A stretch of 49,712 nucleotides of DNA from NCBI GenBank assembly GCA_021204025.1, contig JAJQAC010000080.1, forward strand, positions 1 to 49,712. Direction: 5' to 3'. Below the pieces are notes generated by a model. That model was not told the origin of the DNA, did not search any database, and saw only the letters and a list, made by a program, of their open reading frames with translations. Both the position numbers and the translations under genes were made by a program. The DNA comes from Clostridiales bacterium. GTDB lineage: Bacteria; Bacillota; Clostridia; Lachnospirales; Lachnospiraceae. Within the stretch, counting starts at the first letter, position 1. Each line of letters starts with the position of its first letter. Below are positions 22,714-49,712 of the stretch, one piece after another.

Positions 22714-25700
22714 TGAGTGTGAGAGTAAGTGAGCTTGCGAAAGAATTAGGAAAAAGCAGCAGGGAAATTATAGATTTGCTGAAAAAAATGAATCAGGATG
22801 TGAAAACGCATCTGTCGAATGTGAGTGACGAGCAGGTGCAGATGGTAAAAAAATCTCTTACTTCCAGAGCTTCGGAGCCGGTAAAGGCAGCTGCGGCGGA
22901 CGCTCCGAAAAAGAAAGTAATCGCGGTGTACCGTCCGCAGAATTCTCAACAGAGACCGGCACGTCCGAAAACGCAGAGTCAGGCAAGACCGGCAGCGGGC
23001 CGTCTGCAGGCCGCTGGAGGCGCGGAGAAACCGGCGTCAAGACCGCAGGCTGCAGGAAGTGCGGAGAAAGCGGCGTCGTCAAATACCGAGAGACCGGCAG
23101 CGAAGCCGCTGACGGAGAGTGCTGCGGAGAAACCGGCGGTAAAAGCGCAGGCAGTGGGCAATCCGGAGAAAGCGACAGTGAGAACGCAGACCGCGTCAAA
23201 TACCGAGAGACCGGCAGCGAAGCCACAGACCACGGAAAGCGCGGAGAAACCGGCAGCCAGGACACAGCCGGCGGAAGGAAATGCGGCAAAGACTCAGCAG
23301 GCGCCGGCAGAAGTAGCGGCAAAGAGTCCGGTGCAGACAAGAGCGGAAGCGCCGCAGTCTCAGGCAGGCCGCGCAGGTGTGCAGGAGCAGAGACGCCAGG
23401 ATAATTATGCAGGCGGACGTGATGGCCAGAGACGTTCCGGAAATGGTCAGGGAAACCGTGACGGACAGAGTCGCCAGGGCAGTTATGCGAACCGCGATGG
23501 CCAGGGAACGAGAGACGGTCAGAGACGTGCGGGCGGCTATCAGAACCGCGACGGACAGGGAACGAGAGACGGCCAGAACCGTATGGGCGGCTATCAGAAC
23601 CGCGACGGACAGGGAACGAGAGACGGTCAGAGACGTGCGGGCGGCTATCAGAACCGCGACGGACAGGGCGCAAGAGACGGTCAAAGGCGTACGGGCGGCT
23701 ATCAGAGCCGTGACGGACAGAGTCAGAATCGTACGGGCAGCTATGGGAATCGTGATGGTCAGGGCCAGAACCGCGCCGGCGGTTATCAGGGAACGAGAGA
23801 CGGCCAGAGACGGACCGGAGGTTATCAGAGCCGTGACGGTCAGGGCCAGAACCGCGCCGGCGGTTATCAGGGAAGCCGTGACGGACAGAGCCGTTCGGGT
23901 GGATTCGCAGGTTCCCGTCCGGGCGGACAGGGACGTCCGGGCGGCAGAGATTCGGGGGCAAAGAGTTTTGATACGCCGCTTCAGACTAAGCCGACCAGCA
24001 GCCGTCAGATGAATAAAAATACACGTAAAAACGATCGGTTTGACCGTAAGAACGTCAATGATGACGGCCCGAGAAGCAAGGGCGGAAAAGTATCCAGACA
24101 TCCGTTTATCATGCCGCAGAAAACGGCAGAGAAGAAAGCGGAGGATACCGTAAAGGTGATCACAGTGCCGGAGCTGATTACGATCAAGGATCTTGCGGAA
24201 AAGATGAAGATGCAGCCGTCTGCGATCATCAAAAAGCTCTTTTTGCAGGGTGAGATCGTGACGATGAACTCCGAACTGAGCTATGAGAAAGCAGAAGAGA
24301 TCGCGGTCGAGTATGACATCCTCTGTGAAAAAGAAGAAAAGGTCGATGTGATCGCGGAGCTTTTGAAGGAAAATGAGGAAAATGAGGAAGATATGATCCC
24401 GAGACCGCCGGTGGTCTGCGTGATGGGTCATGTCGACCACGGTAAAACGTCTCTGCTTGACGCGATCCGTTCCACCAATGTAACAGCGCGTGAAGCAGGC
24501 GGAATTACACAGCATATCGGAGCATATACGGTAGAAATCAATGGCCAGCAGATCACATTCCTGGATACGCCGGGCCACGAGGCGTTTACTGCGATGCGTA
24601 TGCGCGGCGCGCAGTCAACCGATATCGCGATCCTGGTGGTTGCTGCCGACGACGGTGTGATGCCGCAGACGATTGAAGCAATTAACCACGCAAAAGCAGC
24701 AAATGTTGAGATCATTGTCGCGATCAATAAGATCGATAAACCGTCCGCGAATATTGAAAAAGTAAAACAGGAATTAATGGAATATGAGCTTGTGCCGGAA
24801 GACTGGGGCGGTAATACCATCTTCGTGCCGGTATCCGCACATACCCATGAAGGCATCCCGGAGTTGCTGGAGATGATCCTGCTGACCGCGGAGGTTAAGG
24901 AGCTCAAGGCAAACCCGAACCGCCTGGCGCGTGGTCTGGTCATTGAGGCAGAACTGGATAAAGGCAAAGGTCCGGTGGCAAGAGTTCTGGTTCAGAAGGG
25001 TACTCTGCATATCGGAGACAATGTTACCGCGGGACCATGTTACGGTAAGGTACGGGCGATGATGGATGACAAGGGAAGGCGTGTCAAAGAGGCCGGTCCG
25101 TCCATGCCTGTGGAGGTACTGGGCTTAAACGGCGTGCCGGGAGCGGGCGACGTCCTCATCGCGATGGAAAATGAAAAGGATACGAGAAGCTACGCGGAGA
25201 CCTTTATTGCCGAGGGCAAAAACCGGATGCTGGAAGATACCAAGATGAAGATGTCTCTGGATGATCTGTTTGATCAGATTAAGGCAGGCAATGTCAAGGA
25301 ACTTCCGATTGTTGTCAAGGCTGATGTGCAGGGCTCTGTGGAAGCGGTTCGCAGCAGCCTCCTGAAACTTTCCAATGAAGAAGTTGTGGTTAAGGTAATC
25401 CACGGCGGCGTCGGCGCGATCAATGAGTCCGATGTGACGCTGGCTGCGGCTTCCAACGCGATTATTATCGGATTTAACGTGCGTCCGGACGCAACCGCGA
25501 AGTCGATTGCGGATCAGGAAAAAGTAGATATGCGTCTGTATCGTGTCATTTATCAGGCGATCGAGGATGTAGAAGCGGCCATGAAGGGCATGCTGGAGCC
25601 GGTTTACGAAGAAAAGGTGATTGGTCACGCGATTGTCCGCCAGATCTTTAAGGCGTCCAGTGTCGGCACGATTGCCGGTTCCTATGTGATGGACGGTAAG

Positions 25701-28311: not shown

Positions 28312-29262
28312 ATGGAAATCATTGCAGGGACAAGACAATTTCAGATCGATGAGCCGACGTCGGTGACAATCGGGAAATTTGACGGAAGGCACAAAGGACA
28401 CCAGAAACTTTTGCGGATGATGCTGAAACTGCGGGAAGAACTGGGGTACAAGGCGGCGGTATTTTCCTTTGATATGATGCCGTCCAATGTAGTTGCCGGG
28501 GAGAAGCACGCGGTGATTACCACGAACCAGGAACGTCGCAACAATATGGAAAAAATCGGTATGGACTATCTGGTGGAGTATCCGTTTGATGAAGAGGTAT
28601 CCCATATGTCAGCGGAGGAATTTGTCAGACAGGTTCTGGTCGGACAGATGAATGCAAAAGCGATTGTGGCCGGTACGGACTGTGGATTTGGTTATCGGAG
28701 AGCCGGAAATGCGGAACTGTTACAGCGCCTTGCGCCGAAATATGGTTATCGGGCAATCATTATCGAGAAAGAGCAGGATGACCATCGGGATATCAGCAGC
28801 ACTTATATCCGTGAGGAGCTGGCGCGGGGAAATATCGAGAAAGCAAATGAACTTCTGGGAGAACCCTATGCGATTCATGGCATTGTCGTACATGGAAACC
28901 ATATCGGTGGGCCGCGTCTCGGCTTCCCGACAGCCAATATCCTGCCGCCTCCACAGAAGCAGCTCCCGCCTTATGGCGTCTATGTCTCGCGTGTTTATGC
29001 GGACGGGAAATATTATAATGGTGTGACGAATATCGGGAAGAAACCCACGGTAGAGGGCGATGCGCCGGTAGGAGTGGAGACTTACCTGTTTGAACTGGAG
29101 CAGGATCATCTCCTGTATGGGAAAAATATTGAGGTGCAGCTGCTTCATTTTGAACGGCCGGAGCGCAAATTTGAATCACTGGATGAGCTGAAAGGGCAGA
29201 TTGAGCGGGATAAGAGGGCGGCGGCGGATTATATTTTGAAGTGTCGGAAACAATTTGGTTGA
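28312..29262 (+). CDS. ribF: Bifunctional riboflavin kinase / FAD synthetase
   Basis: 316 residues from the ATG at 28312, 7 bases after TTAGGAG; in-frame codons at 28249/28258 would overlap truB and lack a match. N-terminal FMN adenylyltransferase: GKFDGRHKGHQKLL (nucleotidyltransferase HxGH) and ISSTYIREEL. C-terminal riboflavin kinase: GNHIGGPRLGFPTANI and GVYVSRVYADGKYYNGVTNIGKKPTV. It makes FMN and FAD from riboflavin and ATP. Last gene of the operon; a structured repeat follows instead of a simple terminator. Confidence 0.95.
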   Translation: MEIIAGTRQFQIDEPTSVTIGKFDGRHKGHQKLLRMMLKLREELGYKAAVFSFDMMPSNVVAGEKHAVITTNQERRNNMEKIGMDYLVEYPFDEEVSHMSAEEFVRQVLVGQMNAKAIVAGTDCGFGYRRAGNAELLQRLAPKYGYRAIIIEKEQDDHRDISSTYIREELARGNIEKANELLGEPYAIHGIVVHGNHIGGPRLGFPTANILPPPQKQLPPYGVYVSRVYADGKYYNGVTNIGKKPTVEGDAPVGVETYLFELEQDHLLYGKNIEVQLLHFERPERKFESLDELKGQIERDKRAAADYILKCRKQFG

Positions 29263-29269
29263 ATCATCC

Positions 29270-29456
29270 GTCCCTGAGAGAAAAGAATATCCTCTGAGGA
29301 CCGCTCACGCTTAGGTTTTCACGTAGCGGTACTCCCTATGACGTGTCACTGGCACGCCATAGGGATACTGAGGCATAAATTCGCAGGAAAAGCATCCTGC
29401 TCATTAAGTGCCGACGTGAAAAATGTCCTCTGCGGATATTCTTTTCTCTCAGGGAC
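29270..29456 (+). repeat. Dispersed structured repeat, copy A
   Basis: The outer arms are a perfect 23-bp inverted repeat: 29270-29292 (begins GTCCCTGAGAG) with 29434-29456 (ends CTCTCAGGGAC). Inside are AGGAC/GTCCT, TTTTCACGT (29316-29324) with ACGTGAAAA (29414-29422), and GGTACT with AGTGCC. At the apex are two more hairpins, CCCTATG-a-CGTG with CACG-c-CATAGGG, and GCAGGA with TCCTGC. The same family recurs at 37042-37179. There is no ORF, no T-run and no match to a known riboswitch. Confidence 0.85.
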
Positions 29457-29610
29457 TACTTTATTGGCATATAAAATATAACTTGATGTAAATGGTGTGA
29501 TCGGTTTCGGTTGTGGAGAAAATATCATCCGGGCTGGGGATAAATGGTAGGTGAAATGCTGTTTGTCCTCCATTTTTTGGCTCAAAAGTGGGGAGAAAAC
29601 CCATTTTCTT

Positions 29611-37041: not shown

Positions 37042-37179
37042 GTCCCTGAGAGAGAAAAATATCCTCCGAGGACCGCTCGCGCTTAGGTTTTCACGTAGCG
37101 GTACTAAGCTCGCAAAACCGTGCTCGCTAAGTGCCGACGTGAAAAATGTCCTCTACGGATATTTTTCGCTCTCAGGGAC
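37042..37179 (+). repeat. Dispersed structured repeat, copy B
   Basis: Outer arms 37042-37064 and 37157-37179 pair over 23 bases with one mismatch and begin and end like copy A (GTCCCTGAGAG ... CTCTCAGGGAC). The core keeps CGCTTAGG, TTTTCACGT, AGCGGTACT and AAGTGCCGACGTGAAAA. It lacks the apical CCCTATG hairpin of copy A. At two stem positions, the base pair differs from copy A with both partners changed (A-T to G-C, and G-C to A-T). Confidence 0.85.
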
Positions 37180-41801: not shown

Positions 41802-41836
41802 AGAGAGGAAGACATCGGACAAATTCCAACGAGGTA

Positions 41837-41871
41837 GTCCGTGCGGGAAGATATTATTTTCCCGCACGGAC
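41837..41871 (+). terminator. Strong hairpin after pfkA
   Basis: GTCCGTGCGGGAA (41837-41849) pairs perfectly with TTCCCGCACGGAC (41859-41871). There is no clear T-run, so it is a weak terminator or a 3'-end stabiliser. A second hairpin follows at 41912-41953. Confidence 0.5.
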
Positions 41872-41911
41872 GGATGAGAGAATATTCAGTATCCGTGTAT
41901 CATAAATTGGC

Positions 41912-47660: not shown

Positions 47661-47735
<75 letters not shown>

Positions 47736-48241: not shown

Positions 48242-49712
48242 ATGAAGAAGAAATTTCTTTCCTGGATGCTGGTGTTGGCATTGCTCATTTCCTTCACTGT
48301 TCCCACGACAATCGCTACAGCAGCAACTGTTGAAGCTACATGGACGATATCCGGAGATAACACGACATATAGAGGCACATTGAGCGATGCGTTCAGTGCT
48401 GCGGCAAATAATTCAAGCAGTATAGTGAATATTACTCTTCAAAGTGATATAAGTGTTGATTCTGATTATGTTTTTTCGGATGGGAATGCAACTTTGAATT
48501 TAAATAGTTTTAGCATTACCCGTCTCAACTCCAGTTCATCAGCATTGGCATTTTATGTTAGCGGAGGAGGCCTCACCATTACCGGCAGTGGAATAATTTC
48601 CGCTGTTATTCTTGGTCGCGGCGGTAACGTGACATTAAATGGTGATGATAGTTTAATAATTAATGGCGATATTTTATATAATGGTTATAGCGCCCGTACA
48701 TTTAGGATGTACGGTGGAACTGTGAATGGCTTCTTAAATTTTGGGCATGGTACGGCATCAATTTCTGGAGGAAAAATAAATTCAGCAGATGAGCATGCTT
48801 TAAGTATTGGTAGTGACAGTTCAGTCTCCCTTTCAGGCGGAACATTTTCTTCTGTATCTGGAGCCGCCATCGAGATTGTAAATAATCAAACGGGTGAACA
48901 AGAAAGTGATTATAATTCATACTCAGCAGTATTGGTAAATGGATATCTGTATACGATAGACGGTACATCTGCGGTTACAGACGGCAGTATTCTTTCAACG
49001 GCAACAACTGTCAGTGTTGTTGCTGATTCATGGACGGTAACATGGAAAAATGAAGACGGAACGGTTCTTGAGACAGACACTGGTGTGAAGTACGGAACCA
49101 CGCCGAGCTACGACGGAGAGGCACCGACAAAGGCAGCGGATGCGCAGTACACTTACACATTCGTAGGCTGGACGCCGGAAGTATCCGATGTGACAGGGAA
49201 TGTGACATACACGGCAACCTACAGCAGTACGGACAACACTTATTCAGTTGAGTGGGTGGATGAAGACGGAACAGTTCTGGAGACAGACACGGATGTAGCT
49301 TATGGCACCACGCCGAGCTATGACGGCGCCACACCGATGAAAGCAGCGGACGCATATTACACCTACACATTCGCAGGCTGGATGCCGGAAGTGTCTGATG
49401 TAACCGGGAATGTGACATACACGGCAACCTACAGCAGCACAGTCAACACCTATGCGGTAGAGTGGGTGGATGAAGATGGAACGATTCTTGAGACAGACAC
49501 GGATGTGGCTTATGGCACCACACCGAGTTACAATGGAGAAACGCCGATAAAGGCAGCAGATGCGCAATACACGTATACATTCGCAGGCTGGACTCCGATG
49601 GTATCCGATGTGACCGGGAATGTGGTGTATACAGCAACCTATTCCAGTACAGTCAATACCTATACGGTAGAGTGGGTGGATGAAGATGGAACGGTTCTTG
49701 AGGCCGATACGG
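48242..49712 (+). CDS. Secreted surface protein with InlB-type repeats (3' end outside window)
   Basis: The frame is open from the ATG at 48242 (AAAGGGG upstream) to the window end (at least 490 codons). Signal peptide: [18 protein letters not shown] then cleavage around ATA-ATVE (residue 27-29). Residues about 30-250 form a beta-helix-like region of short Ser/Gly/Asn-rich repeats ([22 protein letters not shown]). Then come 70-residue repeats of the Listeria/Bacteroides type: [47 protein letters not shown] (seen as [12 protein letters not shown]), starting near 49041, 49251, 49461 and 49671. Any anchor motif lies beyond the window. Probably an adhesin or wall protein. Confidence 0.88.
49041..49712 (+). 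repeat. 210-base in-frame tandem repeats in the surface protein
   Basis: Unit starts at 49041, 49251, 49461 and 49671 (offset exactly 210). Three full units and the beginning of a fourth are in the window. Copies differ at scattered positions, with several silent changes; the third and fourth are most alike at their starts. Each gives one 70-residue InlB-B-like unit. Confidence 0.9.

Follow-up and report, generated by a model that had tools for sequence, protein, structure and literature searches.

Several kinds of dispersed or palindromic hairpin have been described in bacteria. REPINs, BIMEs and GTAG-tagged REPs are scattered hairpins that occur in close inverted pairs and fall into stem subfamilies, and an asymmetric excision footprint is described for REPINs in the accessible part of PMC3116915. 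REP stems measure 5-13 bp according to the accessible text of one survey (PMC3733652), which covers other phyla and in which Firmicutes are not named. Pneumococcal BOX elements are dispersed repeats of modular build that fold extensively and may include an internal module, and a transposase that mobilises them has been proposed from similarity of the terminal repeats (PMC3049150, excerpt). ERIC, Correia and MITE-like repeats are palindromic intergenic elements of ~100-200 nt (excerpts of PMC2267715 and PMC3049150), and MITEs have terminal sequence in common with a transposon (PMC3049150, same excerpt). Finally, copying of one stem arm from the other by template switching has been proposed for hairpins of RNA genes, in which paired and sometimes multi-base stem changes are seen (PMC8794818, in its accessible sections).

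The element described here resembles each of these in part. Its best reading is that of a dispersed hairpin that works like a REPIN but fails REPIN membership on Y1 transposase association and on stem length. Like the REPs it has, in this genus, a GTAG-type unpaired tag at one end, it forms close inverted pairs and stem subfamilies, and one site has an asymmetric footprint. Unlike the REPs it has stems of ~20 to more than 90 matched pairs, a conserved apical core with a GNRA hairpin, a nearly free stem sequence and no association with Y1. Compared by description only, it differs from BOX in having free palindromes for arms and its conservation in the core, and from MITEs in that its terminal arms are the least conserved part. 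The hairpins maintained by template switching are RNA genes, whereas this element is a dispersed repeat that shows similar paired stem changes. No published description of this hairpin family was found, a weak negative given the thin coverage of subscription papers.

The window, meaning the whole stretch of 49,712 nucleotides that was analysed, contains three copies. Copy A (29270..29456, minus strand) is of the long type, and the gene upstream of it is ribF. Its core is flanked by stem P1 (29270-29292/29434-29456) and inner stem P2 (29296-29301/29425-29430). Hairpin P4 (29302..29315, minus strand) has the minus-strand loop GTGA, a GNRA tetraloop, and one side of core helix P3 (29316..29333, minus strand) carries a 2-nt bulge at 29325-29326, the other side lying at ~29406-29422. 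An extra apical hairpin at 29334..29364, given no strand, marks the long type, of which this genome has 19 further copies. The 5' foot on the minus strand is TGCCAATAAAGTA (29457..29469) and the 3' foot (29261..29269, minus strand) has the consensus CGGACGGTTCGCCAATAA. Copy B (37042..37179, minus strand), of the short type, lies between an HPr-family gene upstream and dnaE downstream. It has P1 at 37042-37064/37157-37179, P2 at 37068-37073/37148-37153, P4 at 37074..37087 (minus strand) with the minus-strand GNRA loop GCGA, and P3 with its apical hairpin at 37088..37145 (minus strand), the covariance model match being 37073-37147. In both copies the core is on the strand opposite to the neighbouring genes. 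Copy C (41823..41878, plus strand), which the preliminary description did not contain, is a stem-only remnant made up of TAG, a 12-bp stem and CGG feet. At its site the sister species has a full copy in the opposite orientation.

Copies A and B had been proposed as two related structured elements, and this is borne out by their inverted repeats (29270-29301/29425-29456, 94% complementary, and 37042-37073/37148-37179, 88% complementary), their fold energies against 200 shuffles (-102.6 kcal/mol, z -11.2, and -74.2 kcal/mol, z -9.5) and 65 core matches in the genome. The two copies align in two blocks with identities of 92% and 87%. Direct reading confirms that their outer 11 bases are the same and that the 23-bp stems differ by two changes of both partners with pairing kept (A-T to G-C and G-C to A-T); copy B has one further uncompensated position. 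The extra hairpin of copy A is absent from copy B, and the element is modular as had been suggested. The window also holds other repeats. Three ~100-nt units (TATAACTTATCGGAAGTT...) at 44222-44446 fold into hairpins and form a second repeat family, units of which adjoin several element copies elsewhere in the genome. Tandem repeats at 23445-23885 and 49035-49712 have unit lengths, 54 (and 81) nt and 210 nt, that are divisible by three; they are perhaps repetitive protein genes. A GACA simple repeat at 47684-47729 is a possible slippage site.

A DNA search of the genome returned 78 matching pieces. A covariance model of the core, R1, built on 26 sequences from 9 genomes, matched 65 times in this genome (G000), 53 times in the sister species (G006), 82 times in G021 and 40 times in G001. 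Within the genus the model found the core in 14 of 24 genomes and in none of the other 10, copy number ranging from 0 to 82, while the DNA search was positive in only 9 of the 24. In the sample of the bacterial family, presumably Lachnospiraceae to judge by how many genera it holds, scanned with stricter filters and at most 15 candidates scored per genome, so that copy numbers are lower bounds, 116 of 299 genomes (116 of 298 genera) had core matches and 183 had none. Roughly two fifths of the sampled genera in one bacterial family thus carry the element. A sample of the class gave 9 positives among 391 genomes, our own genome included, and all nine belong to the same family. Rfam 15 covariance models gave 0 matches at gathering in the window and, at E up to 5 in five loci, 4 matches that all lie in L050, far below gathering, with nothing relevant among them. 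The exact core pattern had 0 matches in IMG/VR, and blastn of phages and plasmids with two queries each way found no match. A covariance-model search of the kind that had been proposed for the genome and its relatives has revealed a widespread family whose conserved part is not the 23-bp stem, and the suggestion of a dispersed, structured, MITE-like element that is possibly a new RNA family is supported.

Close inverted pairs of elements a few hundred bases apart, resembling BIMEs, occur at L232/L253, L289, L282 and L073. At L293 and L294 (both G133) whole elements stand in tandem with a spacing of 164-187 bp, and tandem half copies also occur. Half-cores without a partner were sought in this genome as a hint of an autonomous copy. 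There were 64 pattern matches against 3 in a backwards control, and the one match outside known copies turned out to be an internal deletion.

The conserved part of the element is its apical core, a bulged helix and a small hairpin with a GNRA tetraloop. Read on the minus strand, the element begins with a foot that in this genus ends in TAG, followed by arm P1, a small internal loop and P2. P3 with its 2-nt bulge and the conserved CGGCACTTAG comes next, then a variable apical hairpin, CTTAGTACCGCTACGT, the hairpin AGYGNRARCG, the second arm and a CGGAC foot. The foot consensus is TATGCCAATAAAGTAG in 48 copies of this genome and similar in 34 copies of the sister species, a tag of the REP kind in which A and G are there by construction, the copies having been picked by an AG foot. 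Distant genera show no evident foot of GTAG type. The loop is GNRA in all 26 aligned rows, in 103 of 104 genus copies (the single exception being ACAA), a count not conditioned on GNRA, and in 60 of 60 distinct sequences from 67 model hits in 59 loci, a set found by a model that was itself built from GNRA sequences and that includes a few of the 60. The closing pair of P4 on the minus strand is C-G in 64, U-A in 35, U-G in 4, C-U in 1 and C-A in 0 of the 104 genus copies; among the 60 distinct sequences it is C-G in 51 and U-A in 9, with none broken. The second pair is G-C in 102 and A-C in 2 of the 104 copies and G-C in 55, A-U in 4 and G-U in 1 of the 60 sequences. The third, outermost pair holds less strictly, being paired in 85%. 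Double changes occur at 17 of the 20 core pairs, with a covariation score of 0.528 against 0.172 when shuffled (0/500), in an alignment fitted to the model, which favours the score. The tetraloop differs by species, GCGA in 48 of 55 copies of this genome and GCAA in 33 of 36 of the sister species, which shows turnover or conversion of copies within a lineage.

From its GNRA loop and the U-G intermediates, the core is likely, though not proven, to fold on the minus strand. One conserved P3 position runs counter to this, being C-A there and U-G on the plus strand, as does the A-C at the second P4 pair in two copies. GNRA-like loops can be stable in DNA too. The minus strand, opposite to that of the preliminary description, is more likely to be the functional one.

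The arms behave differently from the core. Their sequences vary among copies in this genome and between genera; within single genomes they vary between copies in G109 (in the outer part) and G229 and are alike across copies in G133 and G097. Arm length is ~20 bp in this genome and reaches over 90 matched pairs at most (94 in L260). Pairing is nearly perfect. In the 104 copies there are 2618 Watson-Crick pairs, 16 G-U, 17 A-C and 162 other mismatches, some of the last lying in the internal loop; the figures for 54 distant copies from 29 genomes are 2194, 55, 53 and 147, with 122 gaps. If a single RNA strand were under selection, G-U should be preferred to A-C, and since this bias is absent the arm covariation looks DNA-templated. 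The two double changes between the stems of copies A and B, which had been taken as one sign of selection for structure, are therefore not by themselves evidence of selection on RNA. The case for structure is weakest in this stem covariation and strongest in the core, whose GNRA hairpin and bulged helix hold the evidence that folding is under selection. In 8 orthologous pairs from the two sister species the stem changes were 18 paired and 3 unpaired, where 0.73 paired changes are expected if the arms change independently. Without two pairs that differ in long or short type, and that may be replacements, 9 are paired and 3 unpaired. Copy A, which is outside this count, contributes a one-base deletion in one arm. 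The paired changes fit templated copying between arms, and selection on a DNA hairpin would be compatible with them as well. The bulges beside the arms are conserved and not homogenised, so that any arm copying would not be unlimited.

Comparison of the two sister species shows how sites change. Copy A is common to both at the ribF site and copy B is absent from the sister species. At least nine sites have a full copy in both, after matching in which six of 15 rows were dropped for matching on one repeat-bearing flank only; L029/L073, matched there on its right flank, was retained, as both of its flanks match in a separate comparison. At 14 aligned sites only one species has a full copy, and the interval in the other was searched for traces. 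Five sites have none (copy B, L016, L007, L021 and L038), seven keep a stem or one arm (L029a, L010, L025, L166, L018, L002 and window copy C), L164 has only the 3' foot CGGACG left and L017 has a weak trace. At L002 and copy C the remnant stem has the opposite orientation to that of the full copy. Since nine of the 14 sites hold some trace, many of the differences are deletion losses and not insertions. Loss and rearrangement are frequent, and copy B offers the best case for clean insertion. Junctions are clear only at copy B and L164, and the two differ; no clear target duplication is seen at these junctions except for an A-run at copy B. Direct words common to the left and right flanks are in weak excess (4.95 against 4.63 permuted, with 2 of 300 permutations as high, 81 copies). 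The asymmetric footprint at L164 resembles the REPIN excision footprint, and the variety of remnants weakens any special reading of it.

It is established that the element is present in many copies, that it occupies sites which sister species do not share, that its copies are homogenised within each lineage, that its apical core is conserved and that its arms, nearly free in sequence, stay complementary. We tentatively favour, at somewhat less than an even chance, a non-autonomous dispersed mobile hairpin that would be REPIN-like in behaviour and not a REPIN member. The hairpin would move as a folded single strand recognised through its core and feet, the recognising and moving being done by putative machinery acting in trans. 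Arm pairing would remain perfect through the copying of one arm from the other by template switching during replication or movement of the hairpin, and not mainly through single mutations compensated under selection on RNA. The core would be kept because the mobilising machinery, or a function of a transcript, needs its fold. Several points tell against this reading: no mobilising protein turned up, Y1 being the family looked at, most of the unshared sites hold traces of the element, and constraint at a locus of G229 and G497, described below, suggests a host function.

A functional structured RNA family, either a new non-coding RNA or a processed RNA element with several to many paralogues, is a serious rival, if a less likely one. 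The minus strand would then be the RNA and the core would be under selection. The near-invariant GNRA loop, the P4 closing pairs that hold on the minus strand and the double changes and covariation of the core all argue for it, as do two loci of G229 and G497 in which the core is nearly identical amid diverged intergenic DNA. At one of them the element has 2 differences and the right intergenic flank hardly aligns. At the other the core has ~1 difference in 105 and the outer arms form palindromes in only one of the two species, although the neighbouring gene is highly conserved too. The best indication that some copies matter to the host comes from these two loci. Against an RNA family stand the wide range of copy number within the genus, the 183 family genomes without a match, the arms without a G-U signature and the A-C and C-A oppositions in P4 and P3 on the minus strand. 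Gene context is not fixed either. Among 78 copies of the two sister species 33 lie in co-directional and 17 in anti-directional tandem, 23 between convergent and 5 between divergent genes, as given by a crude ORF caller for which 80 of 91 copies had enough flank, 2 had no neighbour and 14 overlapped a called ORF. In distant loci (55 of 56 copies) the counts are 17, 23, 9 and 6. The tandem orientation bias of the sister species (33 vs 17, p 0.03) is thus not seen in distant loci (17 vs 23, p 0.43). As noted for copies A and B, elements tend to lie after genes in this genome and its sister; the distant loci lack that bias. A cis-regulatory reading from gene context was rejected, as the bias appears in the two sister species and not in the distant loci, and no general rule is drawn from it.

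Between an RNA family and the favoured mobile hairpin there is a further, rather improbable reading. The folded core, with its three-way junction, GNRA hairpin and bulged helix, might itself be the replicating and recognised unit of a new class of RNA-like mobile element, whose arms would be re-made by self-templated synthesis in each round and so be free in sequence and nearly perfect in pairing.

It is quite unlikely that the element is a REPIN or REP system moved by a Y1 (RAYT-type) transposase, although the GTAG-type foot at one end only, the long hairpin, the close inverted pairs and the footprint likened to that in the accessible part of PMC3116915 would suit one. Of the family genomes, 64 of the 116 with the element and 111 of the 183 without it have Y1_Tnp (odds ratio 0.80, p 0.40), and none was detected in 19 of the 39 genomes with at least 10 core matches. 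No element adjoined the 22 of 30 retrieved Y1 loci that were covered by a hairpin scan that sees only the genus-type foot. With no co-occurrence over 299 genomes and no flanking elements at the loci scanned, Y1/RAYT was rejected as the mobiliser; no mobilising protein was found, Y1 being the family looked at. The Y1 matches at L189 and L198 in this genome carry stops, and that at L193 in the sister species is only a fragment.

Purely mutational palindromes, made and mended by replication template switching as described in the accessible sections of PMC8794818 and having neither function nor mobility, are very improbable, since the symmetric mismatches, the multi-base paired changes and the locus-specific outer arms in G109 and G229 would be explained, but dispersal, the GNRA and bulge features and a core conserved in 116 genera would not, and the core contradicts this reading. 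A 3' UTR or terminator structure of upstream genes is just as hard to credit, for while only 5 of the 78 copies in the sister species lie between divergent genes and 23 between convergent ones, distant loci have 9 convergent and 6 divergent, neither copy A nor copy B has its core on the strand of its neighbours, and direct reading finds no T-run after copy A or B, as the preliminary description had said in setting aside an ordinary terminator.

A structured repeat that is present in 116 of 298 sampled genera, reaches dozens of copies in some genomes and matches nothing in Rfam represents either a missing class of mobile element or a missing class of RNA. It also offers a natural test set for selection on RNA structure against DNA template switching, as one molecule combines long stems, whose covariation shows no wobble bias, with a small hairpin that also covaries. 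Stem covariation alone is the usual sign of a functional RNA, and here it could mislead.
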